Assembly (NCBI RefSeq): GCF_003010935.1
Contig: NZ_PGGN01000001.1
Span: 1,302,001 to 1,366,000, forward strand
Length of the DNA stretch: 64,000 nt
Direction of reading: 5' to 3'
Source: Phyllobacterium endophyticum
GTDB taxonomy: Bacteria; Pseudomonadota; Alphaproteobacteria; Rhizobiales; Rhizobiaceae
Part shown: positions 23,389-34,180 of the stretch, piece after piece
Numbering within the stretch: the stretch's first letter is position 1
Layout: each line of letters begins with the position of its first letter
Notes under the pieces: model-generated
Databases searched by the model: none
Told to the model about the DNA's origin: nothing
What the model saw: only the letters and a program-made list of their open reading frames with translations
Position numbers and translations under genes: made by a program

Positions 23389-23724
23389 ATGACACATCAT
23401 TTGAACGCTGAGATGAAGGCTTGCATCGACGAGTGCCTGTCCTGCTATGCAACTTGCCTTTCCACGGCAACCGGATACTGCCTTGAGATGGGCGGCGAAC
23501 ACACACAGAAGGAGCACTTCACTTTGATGCTCGCCTGCGCGGAAATCTGCCGGACTTCGGCGCACTTCATGCTCATCGGCTCCCCGCATCATACGCACGT
23601 CTGCCGCGAATGCGCTGAGATATGTTCCGAATGCTCCGACGATTGCGAGAGGATAGGCGACATGCAGGAATGTGTCGACGCCTGCCGCCGCTGCGCTGAG
23701 TCCTGCAGAAGGATGGCCGCCTGA
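23389..23724 (+). CDS. Four-helix-bundle copper-storage protein (Csp family)
   Basis: A 111-residue protein with 16 cysteines arranged along helices as CxxxC and CxxC pairs (Cys12, 16, 19, 23, 31, 50, 54, 72, 75, 79, 82, 86, 95, 99, 102, 106). It is rich in Glu and His and starts MTHHLNAEMKACIDECLSC. This is the pattern of Csp1/Csp3 copper-storage proteins (DUF326), whose bundle core binds many Cu(I) ions. No signal peptide or Tat motif is visible, so a cytosolic Csp3-like form is likely. AAGGAG precedes the start. A strong terminator follows at 23731-23768. Confidence 0.9.
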   Translation: MTHHLNAEMKACIDECLSCYATCLSTATGYCLEMGGEHTQKEHFTLMLACAEICRTSAHFMLIGSPHHTHVCRECAEICSECSDDCERIGDMQECVDACRRCAESCRRMAA

Positions 23725-23768: not shown

Positions 23769-23966
23769 ACTTGAATTCCGATCGTCCAAATAGTCCCAAA
23801 CAGCGCAATCGCTGAAATCCGAATTGTACCTTCCTGTATCCGGCGCTGCCTGCGTACATGAAGTTACAATGGTCCGGCTCGCCCGACACATCAGCCATAC
23901 ATTTCCTCGTTTTAAGTGCGCCGTGATCAGTGGATTCGCCACTTTAACGCATGGAAGGACGATCGC

Positions 23967-24368
23967 ATGAGAGTTACCCGCATTATCGCTGCCGCCTTGA
24001 TGATCGCCGGCAGTGGACTATCGCTGGATCATTCATCCGCGCAGCAACAGCAAGTTCAGCGAACCGATCTGCTACAAAGCGATATCAGCATACCTGGGCG
24101 GGAGGTCAGTCAGGTTCGCGTCGACTTCGAACCGGGAGCAGTCTCGATAAAGCACTCTCACCCCGGTGAAGAGGTCGCCTATGTTATCGAGGGCTCGCTC
24201 GAATATCAGCTCGAGGGCAGGCAACCGGTAACCCTCAAGGCCGGCGAAACCTTGTTCATTCCGGCGGGAACCGTTCACCTGGCGAAGAACGTCAGCAACG
24301 GAAAATCGTCGGAGCTTGCCACCTACATCCTCGAAAAAGGAAAGCCCACCGTGGTGCCTGCCAAGTAG
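23967..24368 (+). CDS. Secreted single-domain cupin protein
   Basis: A 133-residue protein with a signal peptide (MRVTRIIAAALMIAGSGLSL, cleavage near SSA|QQQ) and one cupin barrel. Cupin motif 1 is seen in HSHPGEEVAYVIEGSLEYQLEG and motif 2 in AGETLFIPAGTVHLAKN. The His, Glu and second His that bind metal are in place. Cupins of this type are often periplasmic with unknown substrates. AAGGA is seven bases before the start at 23967; an in-frame start at 23916 would hide the signal peptide. It sits between the copper protein and the epoxide hydrolase operon with its own flanking gaps. Confidence 0.85.
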   Translation: MRVTRIIAAALMIAGSGLSLDHSSAQQQQVQRTDLLQSDISIPGREVSQVRVDFEPGAVSIKHSHPGEEVAYVIEGSLEYQLEGRQPVTLKAGETLFIPAGTVHLAKNVSNGKSSELATYILEKGKPTVVPAK

Positions 24369-24476
24369 GTCCCACATTCAGCCCCATCGCGATCGCGGAC
24401 GGGGCATCGCTTTCGGCATTTGCAAAGTCTTGGCCAGGTCGGTCGGGGGACCTCTCCCGGCTTCGGCATCGGTTCG

Positions 24477-24542
24477 CTTCAGAATATTTCAGATATCCTA
24501 ATATCGCTTAAGTCGACGCTGAGAACCCCGCGCCATACCCTT
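24477..24542 (+). promoter_or_regulatory. 66-bp promoter element shared with 29479-29544 (copy 1)
   Basis: Block 1 is CTTCAGAATATTTCAG, in which TTCAG recurs ten bases apart. A 13-base divergent stretch follows, then block 2 GCTTAAGTCGAC, an 11-base divergent stretch, and block 3 CGCGCCATACCCTT. The same three blocks with the same spacings occur before the minus-strand operon at 29384. It ends 39 bases before the epoxide hydrolase start. A 10-bp direct repeat upstream of a core promoter fits an OmpR/PhoB-type winged-helix activator, such as the one encoded at 29669. Confidence 0.75.
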
Positions 24543-24581
24543 TGCTTGCCGATTTCTATTCCGATGCCAAAGGAGAAAATC

Positions 24582-25862
24582 ATGTCAGCAATATCACTAT
24601 CCTCCACACGGCGGGAACTGCTTGCCTCGATGGCAGCTGCCGCAACCCTCAGCCTGCTTCCAAAGTCACTGCAGGCAGCCACCCCGGACACTAATATCCG
24701 TCCTTTTACCGCCCAAATCCCCGAAAAAGAGATCGTCGAACTTCGCCAGCGCGTGGCGGCGACCCGCTGGCCTGATCGCGAAACGGTCACTGACCGGTCC
24801 CAGGGCGCGCAATTGGCCAAAGTCCAGGATCTCGTTCGCCACTGGGGAACGGCCTATGACTGGCGCAAGGCCGAGGCAAAGTTGAATGCTCACCCGCAGT
24901 TCATCACCGAGATCGACGGGCTCGACATCCACTTCATCCATGTCCGTTCCCGGCATGCCAATGCCATGCCTTTGATCATGACCCATGGATGGCCGGGGTC
25001 GGTGTTCGAGTTGCTCAAGACGATCGGTCCGCTGACCGATCCGACAGCGCACGGCGGAAGCGCGGATGACGCCTTCCATCTGGTGCTCCCGTCCATGCCG
25101 GGCTACGGCTTCTCGGGCATCCCGAGAGAGACGGGATGGGGTCCCGACCGCATCGCCCGCGCATGGGACGAACTGATGCGCCGCCTGGGTTACGACCGTT
25201 ACGTCTCGCAGGGCGGCGATTGGGGTTCGGTCATCTCGGACGTGATGGCACGGCAGGCTCCGAAGGGGCTGCTCGGCATTCATGTCAACATGCCGGCAAC
25301 TGTTCCGCCCGACATTGCCAAGGCACTCGCCGATGGTGAGCCGGCGCCTGCCGGACTTTCCGCCGAAGAGAAAGCCGCCTACGAGCAGATGGACAACCTC
25401 TACAAGAAGGGGTCCGGCTACGCGCTCATGATGGTCACCCGCCCGCAGACCCTTGGCTATGCGCTGAACGACTCGCCCGTTGGCCTCGCCGCATGGTTTT
25501 ACGACAAGTTCGCGGACTGGACAGACAGCGGCGGCGATCCCGAACGCGTGCTCACCAAGGACGAGATGCTCGACGATATTTCCCTTTACTGGTTTACGGG
25601 AACGGCGACGTCCGGCGCTCGCCTCTATTGGGAAAACAACGCCAATAACTTCAATGCCGTCGACATTTCCATCCCCGCTGCCGTGACGGTGTTCCCGGGT
25701 GAAATCTACCAGGCGCCGAAGAGCTGGGCCGAGCGCGCCTATCACAACCTCATCTATTTCAACGAGGTCGACAAAGGCGGTCATTTCGCGGCGTGGGAAC
25801 AGCCGCAGCTTTTCAGCGCCGAGCTCAGGGCCGCATTCAGGCCGCTGCGCCAGTCGATCTGA
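24582..25862 (+). CDS. Exported (Tat) epoxide hydrolase, alpha/beta-hydrolase fold
   Basis: A 426-residue protein. It starts with a twin-arginine leader (SSTRRELLASMAAAATLSLL), followed by the epoxide hydrolase N-terminal domain (IRPFTAQIPEKEIVELRQRV..TRWPD). The hydrolase domain has the oxyanion HGWPGS, the nucleophile Asp213 in GGDWGS and His401 in KGGHFAAWEQP. Such enzymes open epoxides to diols. AAAGGAG is six bases upstream. It is the first gene of a four-gene plus-strand operon preceded by the shared 66-bp element. The substrate is unknown; export suggests detoxification or processing of an external compound. Confidence 0.9.
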   Translation: MSAISLSSTRRELLASMAAAATLSLLPKSLQAATPDTNIRPFTAQIPEKEIVELRQRVAATRWPDRETVTDRSQGAQLAKVQDLVRHWGTAYDWRKAEAKLNAHPQFITEIDGLDIHFIHVRSRHANAMPLIMTHGWPGSVFELLKTIGPLTDPTAHGGSADDAFHLVLPSMPGYGFSGIPRETGWGPDRIARAWDELMRRLGYDRYVSQGGDWGSVISDVMARQAPKGLLGIHVNMPATVPPDIAKALADGEPAPAGLSAEEKAAYEQMDNLYKKGSGYALMMVTRPQTLGYALNDSPVGLAAWFYDKFADWTDSGGDPERVLTKDEMLDDISLYWFTGTATSGARLYWENNANNFNAVDISIPAAVTVFPGEIYQAPKSWAERAYHNLIYFNEVDKGGHFAAWEQPQLFSAELRAAFRPLRQSI

Positions 25863-25923
25863 TCGATCAGGGACGCGCCCGACGGGTGCGCGTCCTCCCC
25901 CCGCAACTCTAGAGGAGGCTAAA

Positions 25924-26648
25924 ATGGCTACTCAGAAAACAATTCTCATTACGGGTGCATCCCAGGGCATTGGCGCTGGGCTCGTGAACACCTTTCTCGA
26001 ACGTGGTTACAACGTTGTTGCGACCTCCCGCAGAATAACCGGGTCAGGACGTTTCCGGGAGGCGGGGCATCTCGCCCTGGTCGATGGCGATATCGGCGAA
26101 GCGGCAACCGCCGCCAAGGTCGCACAGACGGCGATCAGTCGTTTCGGCTCTATCGATGCGCTGGTCAACAATGCCGGACTGTTTCTGACGAAACCGTTTC
26201 TGGAATTCACGCCGGACGATATGCGCAAGCTCTCGTCGACGAATATCGACGGGTTCATCCATCTCACGCAACTGGCCATAAAACAGATGCTGGCACAGAA
26301 ATCCGGCGGCAGTATCGTAAGCATTACGACATCGCTGGCGGACCACCCGATAGCAGGCGTCAACGCTTCATTGTCCATGGTGACGAAGGCGGCATCAACG
26401 CCATCTCGAAGAGCCTTGCGATGGAGTTCGTCAAGGAGAAGATACGGGTAAACGCCGTTGCTCCGGGTATCGTCGACACGCCCTTGCACGACAATGACCC
26501 GAAGGAATTCCTGCAAGGTCTATCTCCGATGGGTGCCATATCCTCCGTGCAGGAAATCGTCGACGCCGTCGTTTTCCTGACCGAAGCGCCACATGTGACC
26601 GGGGAGGTGCTGCACGTCGATGGCGGCGCACATCTGGGCAAATGGTAA
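25924..26648 (+). pseudogene. Short-chain dehydrogenase/reductase gene with a one-base deletion
   Basis: The reading frame from ATG 25924 (AGGAGG five bases upstream) encodes a normal SDR start: ILITGASQGIGAGL cofactor site, VNNAG and SIVSITTS. Near 26386-26391 (GAAGGCGGC) the homology jumps frame. One missing G restores TKGGINAISKSLAMEFVKEK, which continues to TAA at 26648 with VNAVAPGIVDTPL and VDGGAHLG. As written, translation stops at 26451. It may be a true frameshift mutation or a sequencing error. The usual catalytic YxxxK appears as SMVTK, so Tyr is missing even in the repaired protein. It is the second gene of the operon. Confidence 0.85.
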
Positions 26649-27535
26649 GCGCCGCGGATCAATCGGCGAAAACCGTCGAGGCAGGCGTCAAACAAGAAAT
26701 GCTGTCGGCCAGACGGCAGGTCCGCGTGGATCGCCGCACGCCCGAATACTGGCGCGTAACGTTCGACAATCCGCCGTTCAACATTTTCGGCCCGGACACG
26801 ATACCCCAGCTCAATGAAGTCATTACGGCAATCGAGACGGATCCGCATGTAAGGGTGGTCGTGTTTGACAGTGCCGTGCCGGGTTTCTTCATCACCCACT
26901 ATGACTTCGTCCCGCCTCTGTCCGAATCCACGGGCTTGCCGTCGGGGCCCACGGGCCTGCATCCGCTACCGGACATGCTGGTAAGGTTGAGCCGCTCGCC
27001 AGTGGTCTCGATCAGCCTCATCCGCGGGCGGGCGACAGGCGTTGGAAGCGAACTCGCATTGGCTAGCGACATGCGTTTCGCCAGCCGTGAGAACGCTGTC
27101 CTTTCCCAATGGGAGGTCGGCGCCGCTCTTGTTCCCGGCGGCGGTCCGATGGCCCGCCTTCCGACGCTGATCGGCCGCGGCAGGGCGCTTGAGGTGCTTC
27201 TGGGCGCGGAAGACATTGGTGGCGATCTGGCGGAGAAGTATGGCTACGTCAACCGGTCGCTTGCCGATGCGGAACTCGATGGATTTGTTGATGCGCTCGC
27301 CACAAGAATTTCGAGGTTCGATCGTCATGCGATCGCAGAGACGAAACGTCTTGTCGACGTGGCAAGCCTGCCATCCGACACGGAGATCGGAGCGGGGTGG
27401 GATGCATTCATAACCTCGGTACAACGTCCCGAGGCGCAGGAAAAGATTTCGCAGCTGATGCAGCTCGGACTGCAAACCAACCGGGAAATCGAAGCGAAAC
27501 TGGGTTACTACACGGGGACGTTGGCTCCGAGGTAA
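26642..27535 (+). CDS. Enoyl-CoA hydratase/isomerase family protein
   Basis: A 297-residue crotonase-fold protein. After about 28 N-terminal residues it shows WRVTFDNPPFNIFGPDTI, VVVFDSAVPGFFITHYDF (in place of the usual GFSAGAD loop) and RGRATGVGSELALASDMRFAS. QWEVGAALVPGGGPMARLPTLIGRGRALEVLLG follows, the hydratase core with the oxyanion Gly positions. Classical enoyl-CoA hydratase glutamates are not clearly in place, so the reaction could differ. The ATG at 26642 overlaps the SDR stop; an in-frame ATG at 26699 is an alternative. It is the third gene of the epoxide hydrolase operon. Confidence 0.85.
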   Translation: MVSAADQSAKTVEAGVKQEMLSARRQVRVDRRTPEYWRVTFDNPPFNIFGPDTIPQLNEVITAIETDPHVRVVVFDSAVPGFFITHYDFVPPLSESTGLPSGPTGLHPLPDMLVRLSRSPVVSISLIRGRATGVGSELALASDMRFASRENAVLSQWEVGAALVPGGGPMARLPTLIGRGRALEVLLGAEDIGGDLAEKYGYVNRSLADAELDGFVDALATRISRFDRHAIAETKRLVDVASLPSDTEIGAGWDAFITSVQRPEAQEKISQLMQLGLQTNREIEAKLGYYTGTLAPR

Positions 27536-27599
27536 CCAGATCTGGAGAAGGCCGCCACCGCGGCCACTCTTCCCATTTGATGACAGGAGGTCTGAACCG

Positions 27600-28082
27600 A
27601 TGACAGAACATCTTCTTCAAATTTCCGGCGACGAGCCGCAGGCCGGGGACGGCAGTCCGTTGGATGCCATCACAGGATTTTACCGGGCGTTCAACGCTCG
27701 CGATATGAATGCGCTTGCCACCAGCTGGCTCGACGACGAAAGAGCCAGCATGGACAATCCGATCGGTGGCATACGTCTGGGCTGGAATGCCATCAGGGAA
27801 GGTTATTCGATCCTGTTCGAGGGCAAGGCAGAGGTAAAGGTGGCCTTCGAGGCCCATTCGACCCAGGGCGGCCAAGATTGGCATCTGTTCGTCGGGCGCG
27901 AAAGGGGTTTTTGCAGAACTCCGGAGGCTAATCTCGAGCTTCGCATCAGAACCTCAAGGCTCTTCATCCGGGTCGATGGCAACTGGCGGCAGTTTCACCA
28001 TCACGGTTCCATCGAGGAGCCGGCACTTCTGGCCGAGTACCAGCGCATGATATTCGGCGCGCCTTTGTCGGCGCCGGCTTGA
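27600..28082 (+). CDS. SnoaL/NTF2-like protein
   Basis: A 160-residue small alpha+beta protein. DAITGFYRAFNARDMNALATSW is the typical first helix of the SnoaL-like/NTF2 fold, and RTSRLFIRVDGNWRQFHHHGS is the closing sheet. The family includes polyketide cyclases, ketosteroid isomerases and limonene-epoxide hydrolases, and many members have unknown roles. AGGAGG is nine bases before the start. It is the last gene of the plus-strand operon and converges on the minus-strand operon at the terminator at 28131-28160. Confidence 0.82.
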   Translation: MTEHLLQISGDEPQAGDGSPLDAITGFYRAFNARDMNALATSWLDDERASMDNPIGGIRLGWNAIREGYSILFEGKAEVKVAFEAHSTQGGQDWHLFVGRERGFCRTPEANLELRIRTSRLFIRVDGNWRQFHHHGSIEEPALLAEYQRMIFGAPLSAPA

Positions 28083-28130
28083 GCCGCATCAGGCGAGGCA
28101 GTCCAAGGTTTGCGGCGCCGCAAACAAATG

Positions 28131-28160
28131 AGAGGCGGTCTCCATTCGGGGACCGCCTCT
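28131..28160. terminator. Bidirectional terminator between the two converging operons
   Basis: Perfect 10-bp arms AGAGGCGGTC and GACCGCCTCT enclose a 10-base loop. It lies between the SnoaL-like gene (ends 28082) and the isochorismatase-like gene (ends 28182), where it can serve both directions. Confidence 0.7.
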
Positions 28161-28181
28161 TCCATGAATACCATTGTGCGC

Positions 28182-28820
28182 CTATTGCGCATCGACAGCA
28201 GTGGGCAAGGCTGCGACCAGTTCGGCGGTCGTCAATATGGCGTGCGCATAGGTGGGACCGTTCAGTTCGTGCGCGGCATGCATCATTTCATGGGTGAAAG
28301 CAGCTGTTGCGTCCCGCACCAATGTGACGTGAAAACCCAGCTCCATCGCGTAGCGTCCCGTGGACTCGATGCAGGTGTTGGCAAGAAGTCCCACGACGAT
28401 GACATGCGTAATGCCGTGCTGCCGCAATTGCTGGTCGAGGTCTGTATTGGCGAACCCGCTTTGCGCCCAGTGTTCCTTGACGACGATATCGCCCGGTCTC
28501 GGCGCGAAATCGGGGTGCCAGTCGCCGCCCCATTCTCCCCGCGCAAAGGAATGCCTTTTCATGATTCCCAACTGGGTCGGATTGGGGTGGCACCAGCATT
28601 CATAGTCCCCTGGCTCCCAGCGGCGGTGGGGCACGATGAAGACCCGCATTCCTGACTCCCGCACGGTGCGATTGATGGTCTTCAGGTTCTCGATGAGCCC
28701 TACCTCCTCGGCGACCTCTTTCACGCGCGGCCAAATCTTGCCACCCTCGGAAAGAAAGTCATTGTACGGGTCGACAAAGAGGAGAGCCGTCGATTGCTTG
28801 CTATAAGTTGCCTGTGACAT
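28182..28820 (-). CDS. Isochorismatase-family cysteine hydrolase
   Basis: A 212-residue protein with the cysteine-hydrolase triad: Asp17 in LLFVDPYNDF, Lys115 in DIVVKEHW and Cys150 in GLLANTCIESTGR. A cis-peptide region lies before the Cys. Relatives hydrolyse isochorismate, nicotinamide, N-carbamoyl compounds or ureidoacrylate. The loop ECWCHPNPTQLGIMKRHSF is unusually long and may define the substrate. The gene starts 39 bases after the unknown 174-residue gene ends, so the two likely form one minus-strand operon under the shared 66-bp promoter element. Confidence 0.88.
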   Translation of the reverse strand: MSQATYSKQSTALLFVDPYNDFLSEGGKIWPRVKEVAEEVGLIENLKTINRTVRESGMRVFIVPHRRWEPGDYECWCHPNPTQLGIMKRHSFARGEWGGDWHPDFAPRPGDIVVKEHWAQSGFANTDLDQQLRQHGITHVIVVGLLANTCIESTGRYAMELGFHVTLVRDATAAFTHEMMHAAHELNGPTYAHAILTTAELVAALPTAVDAQ

Positions 28821-28859
28821 TCTTGACTCCTGTCATTGTTTCTTGATCATGGACCGCAC

Positions 28860-29384
28860 TCAATTCCTGAGCGCGGCGCGTTCGATGCTGGCGGCGAAGA
28901 ACGGCGTCTCGCCTTTGTTGTGCGCTATGGACATCGGCTGGCGCTGGGCACGGAAAATATCGAACGGGATGCCCTGGCGATCGAGGAAGTCCTTGAACTC
29001 GTCGGTCGCCTTCGAGCGAACGTGATTCGTGAATTCACACGTGCGACTGTCGATTGGCCTGACGCTCAGTTCCCAGAGGATGTCGAGCGTCGTTCTGCCC
29101 GTCGGGGTGAAGATGTCGGATACGGACTCCAGGATCAGGTGGTCCTTTTGTCCAAGCGTTTCGACATAGTGCTGGACCATCAGGCTGCCACCGATGATTT
29201 CCACGTTGATCGACATCCGCCTGCCATCCGGCGCAGTGGTGAAGCCGGCGGCGATATGGGCCGGCGAGCAGCCCTGATATTCTTTCTCGGACAGCGAGAA
29301 GCACCATTTTGGAATGTCGATCTTTTCGATTGGCGCGTTGATGAGTGCTGTGAAACTTGAATCAACGACTTCATATTCGCTCAT
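28860..29384 (-). CDS. Conserved hypothetical protein, possibly SRPBCC-like
   Basis: A 174-residue soluble protein starting MSEYEVVDSSFTALINAPIE. Alternating strands (MSINVEIIGGSLMVQHYVE, LILESVSDIFTPTG, ELSVRPIDSRTCEFTNHVRS) and a C-terminal helix would fit a helix-grip (SRPBCC) barrel. I do not recognise the family. AAGGAG lies seven bases before the ATG at 29384, deciding against a start at 29480. It is preceded by the second copy of the 66-bp promoter element and followed by the isochorismatase-like gene. The function is unknown; the context suggests binding or modifying the same compound handled by the opposite operon. Confidence 0.75.
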   Translation of the reverse strand: MSEYEVVDSSFTALINAPIEKIDIPKWCFSLSEKEYQGCSPAHIAAGFTTAPDGRRMSINVEIIGGSLMVQHYVETLGQKDHLILESVSDIFTPTGRTTLDILWELSVRPIDSRTCEFTNHVRSKATDEFKDFLDRQGIPFDIFRAQRQPMSIAHNKGETPFFAASIERAALRN

Positions 29385-29478
29385 GTCGTGCTCCTTGATC
29401 TCGAAGAGGGTTACTGCGTGCCATGGGAACGACGCTGGCCGGATGTTCTCCAGGCGCGTCGGCCAAGTTGGCAAAATC

Positions 29479-29544
29479 AAGGGTATGGCGCGATGAATTG
29501 GCGGTCGACTTAAGCACTATTGCGATTGCTGAAATATCCTGAAG
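29479..29544 (-). promoter_or_regulatory. 66-bp promoter element shared with 24477-24542 (copy 2)
   Basis: Read on the minus strand from 29544, the order is CTTCAGGATATTTCAG, 13 variable bases, GCTTAAGTCGAC, 11 variable bases, CGCGCCATACCCTT. Block sequences and spacings equal copy 1, with one difference in the conserved blocks. It ends 94 bases before the 174-residue gene. The regulator gene at 29669 is transcribed away from it. Confidence 0.75.
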
Positions 29545-29668
29545 CAGCCAGGTAAATGCCAGCCTGGATCGGGCGGTATTGGGCAGTCGATAACTCCTTT
29601 GTGCGCTTGCCCATAAAAGTCTTCTCAACTAAAAATAAAAAGACCCAGGGGTGAGATCGCTAATTGCA

Positions 29669-32521
29669 ATGCAGCAGAACAATCCACTCGTATTCGAGTC
29701 CAGCGGATGGGAGGTTGATCTCGCTCAGCGGGAGCTCCGTGCGCGCGGATTGACCGTTCCACTCGGTAGCCGTGCTTTCGAAATCGTCGAAATTCTCGTC
29801 CAGTCAGGGGGCGAGCTGGTAACCAAAGACGATCTCATGCGGCGCGTCTGGCCGGGTCTCAACGTTGAGGACAATACTATCCAGGTTCACATATCGGCCA
29901 TCCGCAAGGCATTAGGCCCGGATCGTGGCATGCTGAAAACGGACTCCGGACGGGGCTATCGCCTGCTCGGCGATTGGGTAATCCGGCAGGAGAACCAACC
30001 CCGGCATGTCGAGCCGGTCAACAGACCGCGGGCCGCAATCCATCCGTTTCTCACCAATGTGCCCGTTGCGGCTTCCGCTCTTATCGGCCGGGAAATGGCC
30101 GTTCAGCATCTGTGTGATCTGGTTTCGGCCTACCGGGTGGTGACCCTGACCGGTCCAGGCGGCATAGGCAAGACTGTCCTGGCATCCGAGGTGGCTCGCA
30201 GGGTCTTTCCGACCGTCGAGAGCGACGTTCTGTTCGTCGAGCTGGTTTCTCTGTCGGATCCGGATCTGGTGCCATCCACGGTCGCAAGTGTGCTCAACCT
30301 GCAGCTGCGCGGCGGCGATGAAATGTCACCGGAATCGGTGGCACGTGTCGTAGGTGACCGCAAGGTCCTGCTTGTCCTAGACAATTGCGAGCACGTAATC
30401 GATGCGGCCGCGAGAATGGCAGAAGCCCTTGTGCGCCTGTGCCCGCATGCGACAGTCCTTGCGACCAGCCGGGAAGTTTTGCGCATAGAGGGCGAATATG
30501 TCTACCGCGTGCCGGCGCTGGACGTTCCGGCACAGCAGGTCGAGGCAGAGGGCAATGTGCTCGAACATAGCTCTGTACAGCTGTTCATAGCGAGGACGCG
30601 GTCGCTGCAGGCGGATTTCGGACCGCAGGCTGAAAAGCTTCCCCTCATCGCGGCGATTTGCCGGCAGCTCGATGGCATTCCGCTCGCGATAGAATTCGCC
30701 GCGGCAAGAGCCGCCAGCCTTGGCATTCAGCAGGTTGCCGGACGCCTCGACGACCGTTTTGCATTGCTGACCGGCGGACGGCGCACCGCGCTGCCACGGC
30801 ACCAGACGCTGCGCGCCACGCTGGACTGGAGTTATGAGCTGCTGCCCGAGACGGAACGGCGCCTGCTGCGGCAACTTGCAATCTTTCCCGCCGGTTTCAC
30901 GCTCGAAGCTGCAACTGCCATCGCGAACCAGACGGAATCATGGGTCGCACTTGGCATTTCAAACCTTGTGTCGAAGTCGCTGGTGGCGCTGGATGGAACG
31001 GAAGCCGCCCAGCGCTGGCGGCTCCTCGAGACCGTCCGCGCCTACTCGCTCGAGAAACTGGCAGAGAGCGGCGAACATGAACAGGTCGTGCGCCGCCTCG
31101 CGCGATTCTGTGTGGCCTTGTTCGCGCCCTTCGCGACCGATGATCAGCTTCAGTCCGCCATAGATGAACTTGGCCGCTATCGCCGGGAAGTCGACAATCT
31201 TCGCGCCGCCCTGAACTGGGCGTTTTCCCCGGGTGGTGACGCTGCCCTCGGGGTCGAACTCGCCGCTATCGCAAGTGACTTCTGGGTAGCCCTGTCGCTC
31301 GTTGCGGAATCCAGCGAGTGGGCCGACACGGCATTGGCGCAGATCGGTGACGCCGCTGGTACACGCTCGGAAATGGTTCTGAGATGCAGTCTCGGTTTTG
31401 CATTGATCTATACGAAAGGAATGAGCGCCCACGCTCGCGATACTTTGACACGTGCGCTGGCACTCGCGCGCCAGTTTCAGGATTTCGACTATCAGCAGCG
31501 CCTGACTTGCGGCCTGTGGCTCTTTTCTGCCCGCTCGATGGCCTTGAATGACGCGCTGGCCTTCGCCCGCGAATATGAAGAAGTCACCCGGGGTCGCGAT
31601 CTTCAGTTCCGGGCGACGGCTGCCTGGCTGGTCGGGATACCGCAGACCTATCTGGCGGAGCACAACGAGGCCAGCGAGCGGCTTCAATGGGCTGTTGGAC
31701 AATATCCTGTCGTAAGACGGCGTATCGATATGATGCGGCTCGGGGCTGACGTACGTGCCTCGGCCCTGGCTCACGACACAGTCAACCTCATGTCGCAAGG
31801 CCGTCTGGACGCCGCGTCCCGCGCATCGCAAAGCGCCATCGAAGAGGCCCGCGCCACCAATCAACCCTTCGTCCTGTGTGTCGCTCTCGCCTGGGCGGCG
31901 GGGTTCGTTTCCCTTGGTCTGGGTGAGCTGGACAGGGCGAGGGAATATGGCGAGGAGCTTGTCGATCATGCCTACAAGCACGCGCTGCGCCCGTTCTATG
32001 CTGCTGGCCTTTGTGTAAGGGGTAGTCTCCTGGCGAGGCGTGGCCAGCCGGAAGCAGGCGTCGGGCCCTTGCGCTCCGGTCTCGCCGAAATGCAGGAAGC
32101 GGTGTACCTGCTGTTCTATCCGTTTTTCCGGGCAGAACTCGCCGCGGCACTCGGCGCGATGGGCCGCGTCGATGATGGGCTTTGCGAAATCGAGGCGTCA
32201 CTTCGCTTCGCGATAGAGACGGATTACCGGTGGTTCGTGCCGGAAATGTTGAGGACAAAGGGCGATCTTTTGGCACTGCGTGATACGGATCATCCATCGG
32301 TCATAGAGGATATGTACCGTCGTTCGATGCAACAGGCGAATGACCAGAAAGCGCTCTATTGGGAACTCTCCGCGGCGACCAGTCTCGCCGGGCATTTGCA
32401 GAGGCAACGTAAAGATGCCGAGGCGCTCGCGGTCCTTGCTCCGGTCTATGGGCGAATGACTGAAGGCTTCGCCGCTCCGAGTGTGAAGCGGGCCAAGAGC
32501 ATACTGGACCAGTTGAGCTGA
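29669..32521 (+). CDS. Winged-helix transcriptional regulator with NTPase (STAND/NB-ARC-like) and helical-repeat domains
   Basis: A protein of about 950 residues. An N-terminal OmpR/PhoB-type DNA-binding domain (EVDLAQRELRARG..ELVTKDDLMRRVWPGL..VHISAIRKALG..GRGYRL, residues about 10-105) is followed by an ATPase module with Walker A GPGGIGKT near 162 and Walker B LLVLDNCEHV near 234, plus TSREVLRIEGE. A long C-terminal helical, TPR-like region completes it. Such regulators couple ligand sensing and ATP-driven oligomerisation to activation. A GTG at 29651 is an alternative start. It is divergent from the minus-strand operon and is the best candidate to bind the two shared 66-bp elements. Confidence 0.87.
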   Translation: MQQNNPLVFESSGWEVDLAQRELRARGLTVPLGSRAFEIVEILVQSGGELVTKDDLMRRVWPGLNVEDNTIQVHISAIRKALGPDRGMLKTDSGRGYRLLGDWVIRQENQPRHVEPVNRPRAAIHPFLTNVPVAASALIGREMAVQHLCDLVSAYRVVTLTGPGGIGKTVLASEVARRVFPTVESDVLFVELVSLSDPDLVPSTVASVLNLQLRGGDEMSPESVARVVGDRKVLLVLDNCEHVIDAAARMAEALVRLCPHATVLATSREVLRIEGEYVYRVPALDVPAQQVEAEGNVLEHSSVQLFIARTRSLQADFGPQAEKLPLIAAICRQLDGIPLAIEFAAARAASLGIQQVAGRLDDRFALLTGGRRTALPRHQTLRATLDWSYELLPETERRLLRQLAIFPAGFTLEAATAIANQTESWVALGISNLVSKSLVALDGTEAAQRWRLLETVRAYSLEKLAESGEHEQVVRRLARFCVALFAPFATDDQLQSAIDELGRYRREVDNLRAALNWAFSPGGDAALGVELAAIASDFWVALSLVAESSEWADTALAQIGDAAGTRSEMVLRCSLGFALIYTKGMSAHARDTLTRALALARQFQDFDYQQRLTCGLWLFSARSMALNDALAFAREYEEVTRGRDLQFRATAAWLVGIPQTYLAEHNEASERLQWAVGQYPVVRRRIDMMRLGADVRASALAHDTVNLMSQGRLDAASRASQSAIEEARATNQPFVLCVALAWAAGFVSLGLGELDRAREYGEELVDHAYKHALRPFYAAGLCVRGSLLARRGQPEAGVGPLRSGLAEMQEAVYLLFYPFFRAELAAALGAMGRVDDGLCEIEASLRFAIETDYRWFVPEMLRTKGDLLALRDTDHPSVIEDMYRRSMQQANDQKALYWELSAATSLAGHLQRQRKDAEALAVLAPVYGRMTEGFAAPSVKRAKSILDQLS

Positions 32522-32590: not shown

Positions 32591-32920
32591 ATGACACAAA
32601 CAACCGCCATAGATGCCGTTATGCGAACTTTGGGCGATCCGACACGACGCGCCGTCTTCGAACGGATCGTCACCTCCCGTGAGATAACGGTTGCCGAGCT
32701 GACGCGGGGCAGCGGCGTGACGCAGGGCGCCATCTCCCAGCATCTTAAATCGTTGAAACAGGCCGGGTTGGTCGCCGAGCGTCCGGAGGGGCGCAATGTC
32801 TACTACCGCGCCGAGCCCGAAGGTCTGGAGCCGCTCGTCGACTGGATGAGCCACTACGGTCTCTTCTGGCGCGAGCGCTTTGCCGACCTCAGAACACTAT
32901 TGAAGGAGATGGATCCATGA
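32591..32920 (+). CDS. ArsR-family (SdpR-like) repressor, module 1
   Basis: A 109-residue winged-helix regulator with MRTLGDPTRRAVFERIVTSRE, the recognition helix VTQGAISQHLKSLKQAGLV and the wing ERPEGRNVYYRAEPEGLEPL. No metal-binding cysteine motif is present, so it belongs to the metal-independent SdpR-like branch that is usually paired with an AHSA1/SRPBCC partner. It overlaps the following AHSA1 gene by four bases (ATGA). The duplicated palindrome at 32549-32582 directly precedes it. Confidence 0.9.
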   Translation: MTQTTAIDAVMRTLGDPTRRAVFERIVTSREITVAELTRGSGVTQGAISQHLKSLKQAGLVAERPEGRNVYYRAEPEGLEPLVDWMSHYGLFWRERFADLRTLLKEMDP

Positions 32921-33402
32921 ACGATGCCGCTGTGAAGTCGGGCACTCGGGAAATTGCGGTCGAAGAAGTTCTTCCGCATTCGCCCGAGACCATCTGGAAG
33001 GCGTTGACGACCGGCGATTTGATCACCCGTTGGCTGGGAATGCCGACAACGGGTTTTGAGGCGGTACAAGGCAAACGCTTCACGTTCCAGACGACGCCGG
33101 CCGGCAAATGGGACGGCCTCATACGATGCGAGGTGTTGGAAGTGGTGCCAAACGAGCGGCTCGTCTATTCCTGGCAGAGCGGCCATGCGGACAATGTCGG
33201 ATATGGCTCGCCGTTGGACACCGTCGTCACGTGGGTTCTTGCCCGGGTGGAGAACGGCACGCGCCTTGGCCTTGTCCATTCGGGATTCGTGCTCCCGAAC
33301 AACGATACCGCTTTCAGGAATATGAGCGCGGGCTGGAAGAAGGTGGTTCCTGGTATCGGCGCTCTCGTCACTGACGAGGTTTCATCCAAAAAATTGAACT
33401 AG
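32917..33402 (+). CDS. AHSA1/SRPBCC-domain protein, module 1
   Basis: A 161-residue helix-grip protein of the AHSA1 family. The typical VEEVLPHSPETIWKALTTGDLITRWLG opening precedes [16 protein letters not shown] and the closing amphipathic helix FRNMSAGWKKVVPGIGALV. These domains bind hydrophobic ligands. Paired with an ArsR repressor by a four-base overlap, it may act as a ligand-binding partner or effector in the same operon. The DUF899 gene follows 28 bases later and could be cotranscribed. The ligand is unknown. Confidence 0.88.
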   Translation: MNDAAVKSGTREIAVEEVLPHSPETIWKALTTGDLITRWLGMPTTGFEAVQGKRFTFQTTPAGKWDGLIRCEVLEVVPNERLVYSWQSGHADNVGYGSPLDTVVTWVLARVENGTRLGLVHSGFVLPNNDTAFRNMSAGWKKVVPGIGALVTDEVSSKKLN

Positions 33403-33430
33403 CGGAGACACGACAACGAGGAGGTTTGCC

Positions 33431-34180
33431 ATGCAACACAAGGTCGTTTCGCGTGAAGAGTGGCTCGACGCGAGGCTCAAGCTGCTCGAGGAGGAAAAAG
33501 ACCTGACACGCCGCAGCGACGAGCTGGCGCAGCGAAGGCAGGAACTGCCCTGGGTCAGGATCGACAAGCAGTACCGCTTCGAGACCGACGAGGGAAGCGC
33601 TTCGCTCCCCGATCTCTTCCAGGGCCGCTCGCAGCTCCTCATCTACCATTTCATGTTCGGGCCGGACTACACCGCCGGGTGTCCATCCTGCTCGGCAATA
33701 GCCGACGGCTTTGACCGTTCCGTCGTCCACCTCGCCAATCATGATGTGACGCTCGGTCCTGTTTCGCGGGCACCTATGGCAAAACTTCAGGCCTACAAGA
33801 AGCGGATGGGATGGACTTTCCCCTGGGCATCCTCGTTCGGCAGCGACTTCAATGCGGATTTCAGTGTCACGTTTACCGAGAAGCAACAGCGCGAAGGCAT
33901 CGAATATAATTATGTCCGCGAGCCGAAGCTGGAACCCGCAACCCCCGACGAGATCGCTTTCGCTGCCATGTCGGGAACAGGTGCCGACGAGTATGCGCGC
34001 GAGCGGCCGGGCATGAGCGCCTTCGTGCTGGAGGATGGCGTGATTTACCACACCTATTCCGCTTATGCGCGTGGTCTCGATGGCCTCTGGGGCATGTACC
34101 AGTGGCTCGATCGTGCTCCGAGGGGACGCAACGAAGATGGTGTCTGGTGGCGCCGCCACGACGAATACAGCAGAACCTGA
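33431..34180 (+). CDS. DUF899 (thioredoxin-like fold) family protein
   Basis: A 249-residue protein with the DUF899 signatures VSREEWLDARLKLLEEEKDLTR, ELPWVRIDKQYRFETDEG, LIYHFMFGPDYTAGCPSCS (the CxxC of the thioredoxin-like core) and GLDGLWGMYQWLDRAPRGRNE near the end. The family is widespread in proteobacteria and thought to be redox active, without a settled function. GAGGAGG lies six bases before the ATG. It sits downstream of an ArsR-AHSA1 pair and upstream of a GFA protein, probably in one transcription unit. Confidence 0.9.
   Translation: MQHKVVSREEWLDARLKLLEEEKDLTRRSDELAQRRQELPWVRIDKQYRFETDEGSASLPDLFQGRSQLLIYHFMFGPDYTAGCPSCSAIADGFDRSVVHLANHDVTLGPVSRAPMAKLQAYKKRMGWTFPWASSFGSDFNADFSVTFTEKQQREGIEYNYVREPKLEPATPDEIAFAAMSGTGADEYARERPGMSAFVLEDGVIYHTYSAYARGLDGLWGMYQWLDRAPRGRNEDGVWWRRHDEYSRT

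Follow-up and report, generated by a model that had tools for sequence, protein, structure and literature searches.

A tandem-repeat promoter element next to a winged-helix STAND-type regulator in Phyllobacterium endophyticum, and its occurrence in other Rhizobiales

A 64,000-nucleotide stretch of the Phyllobacterium endophyticum genome (contig NZ_PGGN01000001.1, positions 1,302,001 to 1,366,000; hereafter the window) carries two copies of a conserved promoter-like element, one of which lies beside the gene of a large winged-helix regulator, here called REG. The element is very probably a promoter of the sigma70 type whose -35 box is weak, with four half-sites to which REG binds to activate four operons of this genome. 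We infer that the C-terminal helical-repeat part of REG would meet an inducer, that its ATPase core, acting as an ATP switch, would let the protein assemble and bind the four tandem half-sites, and that bound REG would act as a class II activator by recruiting RNA polymerase. Four operons would thereby be turned on together: epoxide hydrolase-short-chain dehydrogenase (SDR)-enoyl-CoA hydratase-SnoaL; 174-aa protein-isochorismatase; glyoxalase-SDR; and a second epoxide hydrolase. The predicted sites and the regulator are as follows.

24478..24541, plus strand: promoter/operator 1, heading the epoxide hydrolase operon
24478 (TTCAG), 24488 (TTCAG), 24498 (CTAAT) and 24508 (TTAAG), plus strand: half-sites of promoter/operator 1
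24513-24518 (TCGACG) and 24536-24541 (TACCCT), plus strand: -35-like and -10-like boxes of promoter/operator 1
29480..29543, minus strand: promoter/operator 2, heading the operon of the 174-aa protein and the isochorismatase, and divergent from REG
29543, 29533, 29523 and 29513, minus strand: starts of the half-sites of promoter/operator 2
29508-29503 (TCGACC) and 29485-29480 (TACCCT), minus strand: -35-like and -10-like boxes of promoter/operator 2
29669..32521, plus strand: REG, winged-helix (Trans_reg_C) + STAND/AAA + helical-repeat regulator of 950 aa (Pfam, PDB profile), the proposed binder

Across an alignment of 26 sites (23 unique, in 13 spacer groups) the series consists of TTCAG at offset 0, T at 9, TTCAG at 10, A at 23, CTTAA at 29-33, T at 35, G at 37, and TA at 58-59. 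Since the search patterns prescribed TTCAG, CTTAA and the T at offset 35, their conservation proves nothing alone, whereas the T at offset 9, the A at 23, the G at 37 and the TA of the -10 box were free in the species-wide scan described below and were invariant in its hits. This TA is found at offset 58 in all 23 unique sites, and other offsets between 40 and 129 never reach 5 of 23. The element thus reads as a promoter with half-sites every 10 bp, a -35-like TCGnnn (TGGnnn at the site of genome G782), a 17-bp spacer, and a -10 box starting with TA. The repeat series, present at all 26 sites though partly fixed by the search patterns, forms the predicted operator. Its reading as a selectively maintained direct-repeat operator, of a type to which winged-helix proteins bind, appears well supported by the sequence.

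A first-pass annotation of the window had described a three-block unit of 66 bp at 24477-24542 (plus strand) and 29479-29544 (minus strand), and both copies were recovered there with the blocks and spacing it gave. The unit itself was not supported, since block 3 is mostly not conserved beyond its TA: its full form is common only to the two window copies (14/14 bases), and elsewhere just the TA recurs, as TAnnnn at a fixed distance. The repetition of TTCAG at a 10-base step, noted for block 1, was found as described, although block 1 turned out to cover only half of a series of four 10-bp steps, which continues into block 2. Blocks 2 and 3 with their 11-base gap match the window twice with 0 mismatches, and zero matches were obtained in 100 dinucleotide shuffles of the window, even at up to three mismatches. 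At the mismatch levels used, neither block 2 (4 found versus 3.4 expected) nor block 3 (8 versus 7.3) is in excess when taken alone, and block 1 shows a mild excess only (7 versus 2.7); because single blocks occur near their expected frequency, the evidence for the element lies in the block combination. No Rfam match that would indicate an RNA leader was found in 23800-30000.

The whole-genome scan of P. endophyticum returned four copies at up to three mismatches, rather than only the two of the window, with no match of the reversed-pattern control. The further copies are located on other contigs, before a glyoxalase-SDR pair (C5) and before a second epoxide hydrolase (C6), which contradicts the self-contained regulon initially proposed. 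Pairwise identity of the four copies is 72-88% in the 40-bp core, 42-62% in the next 24 bp, and 21-34% in the 100-bp flanks on either side; because the flanks are unrelated, no long duplicated stretch explains the four copies, and the earlier suggestion of selection rather than recent duplication agrees with this retention of the core. Offset 22 is A in all four sites of this genome and C in the other sites, as would be expected if these sites had spread within the lineage.

The element was subsequently followed in other genomes. A strict pattern built on the bases of the P. endophyticum copies matched only this genome among 99 and missed the Rhizobium form, and it was therefore relaxed. Of 394 genomes of the family, two contain the element (at up to two mismatches), and these two are also the only ones with a close REG (E <=1e-200), a coincidence of 1 in 77,421 if the genomes were independent. 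In a species-genome collection of 84,980 genomes, which may lack records very near that of the window, a scan yielded 16 exact matches, 12 of which are in Rhizobiales. All 12 adjoin a REG ortholog (57-65% identity), which for locus L041 required a wider sequence (L073). The other 4 occur in unrelated organisms without a REG homolog in the surrounding 1.6-8 kb and are judged to be chance matches. Moreover, a search that started from REG identified nine plasmid records (E <=1e-150), and in 9/9 the element lies upstream of REG on the opposite strand; some of these records are close to the 12 Rhizobiales matches, such that the two sets are not fully independent. Each of the 13 other element-bearing genomes contains one copy (at up to three mismatches; reversed control 0/14), as does each of the 8 plasmid records searched, of 9.

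Residues 29-99 of REG match Trans_reg_C (PF00486) with 55.9 bits against a cut-off of 26.2, and in sequence-profile comparison the nearest solved structures of this DNA-binding domain are of the OmpR/PhoB type, with PhoB chains at E of about 6e-10. Pfam matched neither a Response_reg domain (at E <=0.001) nor, following the winged helix, a BTA domain; the ATPase-domain matches begin at residue 138. The ATPase core matches AAA_22 (28.1 bits, cut-off 27), and its NB-ARC match (21.5) stays under the cut-off of 23.5; its Walker A motif GPGGIGKT is invariant in 9/9 aligned REG proteins. Pfam detects no TPR in REG; beyond residue 490 the AlphaFold model has a run of 23 helices, for the most part with a predicted local distance difference test score (pLDDT) >70 from about residue 510. 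In the 12 aligned REG proteins from element-bearing loci the winged helix is 70-81% identical to that of the window REG. The initial idea of an operator that fits a winged-helix protein and is tied to the regulator at 29669-32521 is therefore sustained at the level of sequence, by the Trans_reg_C match and the co-occurrence, and the first-pass interpretation as a whole is partly supported.

Several observations weigh against activation by REG through this element. The winged helix has a pLDDT <50 in the AlphaFold model, which hence lends it no structural support. REG homologs of 37-52% identity come from genomes in which the element was found in 0/10 (genome-wide, up to three mismatches), and the winged helix of such element-less homologs is still 59-68% like that of the window REG (four aligned). 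The reversed-pattern control matched once in the 394 family genomes (G472), and many of the 26 aligned sites come from close relatives and hence are not independent. In addition, P. endophyticum has two full-length REG paralogs (34% and 30% identity) that may bind the element too; they were tested only for an adjoining element, and the weight-matrix scan found none beside either of them. These paralogs, as well as the position of the element between divergent genes, where it could equally serve the control of REG expression, are also compatible with an operator for the DNA-binding protein of a non-adjacent gene that controls REG and its neighbours. We consider this improbable: the presence or absence of the element tracks close REG exactly in the 394 genomes, albeit with only two positive, three of the four P. 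endophyticum copies do not lie beside REG, and the form of the repeats suits the domain of REG itself. Somewhat less improbable, but still unlikely, is that REG binds the element and represses, or mainly controls itself and its neighbour. The single copy per genome or plasmid outside P. endophyticum, beside REG in every locus examined, would fit such a role, but half-sites that end at a poor -35 box without covering the -10 box are the layout of an activator, as is the case here, and the distal copies in P. endophyticum argue against mere self-control.

The remaining alternatives dispense with an activator. An alternative sigma factor promoter would account for the spacing that is fixed up to the -10 box, but some 40 conserved upstream bases in 10-bp steps exceed a two-box sigma promoter and the annotation of the neighbouring genes, available for 8 plasmid regions (the ninth record is without annotation), includes no sigma factor, making this explanation very improbable. 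Even less credible is a recent copying event without present function, either a duplication or the spread of a small mobile repeat together with its promoter. Although the sharing of block 3 by the two window copies and no other copies would be accommodated, this is largely refuted by the unrelated flanks, the presence of only four copies, and the constancy of the -10 spacing and of bases not selected by the search across 26 sites.

Activation of operons by REG appears to be wired in two ways. In 20 of the 22 REG loci outside P. endophyticum the element drives a gene encoding a LuxR-type response regulator, here termed the relay gene, which further contradicts a self-contained regulon. A LuxR-type response regulator lies on the other side of the element in 12/12 Rhizobiales matches (8 loci by homology, four by place) and, by annotation, in 8/9 plasmids. 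R. etli CFN42 is of this relay type, with REG as RHE_RS29200 and the LuxR-type gene as RHE_RS29205. Response_reg and GerE both score above the Pfam cut-off in 3/3 relay proteins scanned, and the remaining ones were assigned by similarity or record annotation. Weaker copies of the element were not found before the enzyme operons of the relay loci with a weight matrix that scored the best non-site at -4.0 versus at least 44.6 for the sites, 17/26 of which had trained it. In contrast to these relay loci, the element directly heads epoxide hydrolase-SDR-glyoxalase genes on pRLG201 of R. leguminosarum WSM2304, and enoyl-CoA hydratase-SDR-glyoxalase-epoxide hydrolase-SDR genes in G782. No response regulator adjoins REG in P. 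endophyticum, G782 or pRLG201. The best matches to the relay gene in these direct genomes reach 115 bits (39% identity; P. endophyticum), 96 bits (37%; G782) and 114 bits (36%; pRLG201, plasmid only), versus 148-232 bits for the element-adjacent genes in the 11 relay genomes searched, with identity ranges that marginally overlap (one relay genome is at 40%). A relay ortholog is therefore likely absent from the direct genomes.

Comparison of the sequences preceding the enzyme genes in 11 relay loci, for which no shuffled control was included, revealed an inverted repeat, about GGTATCGnnGACACCnTnGnACAAT, that recurs ahead of genes for SDR, epoxide hydrolase, glyoxalase and SnoaL-like proteins; it was seen before the enzyme operons of L074-L076, L078, L081, L082, L092, L095 and L098. 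At up to five mismatches it was detected in 14/15 relay loci (none in L099) and in 0/5 direct stretches (window, L005, L006, L072, L091), with one match of the reversed control each in L075 and L092. Genome-wide, at up to three mismatches, 12/12 relay genomes contain 2-7 matches, each including at least one at up to two mismatches, where a palindromic site may count on both strands and some matches are far from the cluster; the reversed control gave one match in G010 and three in G794. Two relay plasmids, of eight, were scanned and have 4 and 3 matches. At the same threshold, P. endophyticum and pRLG201 have 0 and G782 has 1 (3 mismatches, on a contig without REG), and four congeneric relatives have none. 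No match occurs in the outgroups G062, G228 and G092; the outgroup G432 has 2, both at 3 mismatches, of which one is about 15 kb from its REG. The second motif is a candidate binding site of the LuxR-type response regulator; in several relay genomes the contig also encodes another, similar response regulator, which could bind it instead.

Regarding the direction of change, the relay group forms one clade in the REG tree (support 100/100), any grouping of the three direct proteins has a support of only 53/10, and G062 lies outside both; the tree carries a long-branch warning for G432 and G062, and the P. endophyticum paralog of 34% identity was left out. The strict element was found beside none of the REG homologs of 37-52% identity. 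The outgroup G062 contains REG, an adjoining response regulator, and homologs of several of the enzymes. Its response-regulator promoter has TTCAG-N5-TTCAG only, without the rest of the element, which is suggestive at best. The promoter of its epoxide hydrolase contains a stretch resembling the second motif that is too diverged to be picked up by the three-mismatch scan. A TTCAT-N5-TTCAG pair was also seen just upstream of REG in G062; the two pairs are those of L135:13156(-) and L135:9373(-). The G062 response regulator may not be an ortholog, because it scores 78 bits against the relay protein, below two others in that genome. The relay is weakly favoured as the ancestral state. Tentatively, and with slightly less than even confidence, which we lowered a little because of this doubtful orthology, we propose that the cascade was short-circuited. 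An ancestral chain, from REG via the LuxR-type response regulator to the enzymes through GGTATCGnnGACACCnTnGnACAAT, would have been kept by the Rhizobium clade and is hinted at in G062; the relay would have been lost and the REG operator placed directly on the enzymes, once in G782, once on pRLG201 of WSM2304, and four times in P. endophyticum. The same kinds of enzymes would have stayed under control while the middle tier and the operators were replaced.

The genes of the window operons, putatively grouped on the basis of strand and short gaps only, are listed below.

24591..25862, plus strand: epoxide hydrolase (EHN + alpha/beta hydrolase; Pfam), with a twin-arginine-like N-terminus by eye
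25924..26451, plus strand: SDR, frame broken near 26390, remaining homology in another frame to about 26645
26642..27535, plus strand: enoyl-CoA hydratase/isomerase family protein (Pfam)
27600..28082, plus strand: SnoaL-like protein (Pfam)
28860..29384, minus strand: conserved 174-aa protein, first gene of operon 2, without Pfam match, homologs in relatives
28182..28820, minus strand: isochorismatase-family cysteine hydrolase (Pfam)

As the first-pass annotation stated, the two operons converge, that of the epoxide hydrolase (plus strand, ATG at 24591) facing that of the 174-aa protein and the isochorismatase-type hydrolase (minus strand, ATG at 29384). The frame-broken SDR (25924-26645) is either a pseudogene or the result of a sequencing error, and the SDR headed by the C5 copy of the element is a single intact open frame, unlike that of operon 1. 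A cyclase-like protein (by eye; L006:5631-7421) follows the second epoxide hydrolase, overlaps its end, and may share its operon. Upstream, 23389-23724 encodes a small Cys/His-rich protein that by eye resembles four-helix copper-storage proteins. Downstream of REG, 32591-34180 encodes in a row an ArsR-type regulator (by eye), an AHSA1-family protein and a DUF899 protein (both Pfam).

OmpR/PhoB-family regulators bind tandem half-sites upstream of the -35 box. Response regulators of this family share the type of DNA-binding domain with REG by profile, and differ in their receiver domain, which is unmatched in REG. The relay gene product resembles FixJ/NarL-type LuxR response regulators in its receiver and GerE domains, and is unlike them in that its gene is an apparent transcriptional target of REG, with a proposed relay to the enzymes through a putative motif of its own. 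In MalT the DNA-binding domain is LuxR-type and C-terminal, unlike that of REG, which is OmpR-type and N-terminal. According to PMC4381067 and PMC6468293, an inducer-bound sensor opens the assembling ATPase core in MalT and other STAND regulators, as is proposed for REG. The repeats of PhoP are of 7 bp with a 4-bp spacer (PMC4832192), versus the 10-bp steps here. AfsR of Streptomyces, a SARP-NOD-TPR activator as described in PMC10936776, is the closest worked example among the matches listed. It shares with REG an N-terminal OmpR-type DNA-binding domain and a nucleotide-binding core, as well as a repeat sensor, which is putative in REG, and with the present proposal a direct-repeat operator at a poor -35 box and the role of activator. 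Differences are its BTA domain after the winged helix, for which REG has no such Pfam match, and the afs box, which according to the same text consists of two 11-bp repeats over the -35 box and spacer, centred at -29.5, whereas the four 10-bp steps here end upstream of the -35 box. The element and regulon are undescribed among the matches listed in the open-access literature, to which the search was confined, subscription papers lying outside it; the main text of two network papers on R. etli CFN42 (PMC11387232, PMC9611204) does not mention the regulon, and that of PMC9611204 has only general mentions of p42f.

The analysis yields a predicted operator, a candidate regulator and a list of targets for a large STAND-type regulator, of which AfsR and MalT are the worked examples among the papers listed. 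As a guess, the enzymes (epoxide hydrolases, dehydrogenases, glyoxalase) handle a reactive or plant-derived compound, and the identity of the inducer would also point to their function. If true, the swap from relay to direct control would offer a compact natural example of a rewired network, with its two sets of operators both readable from the sequence.

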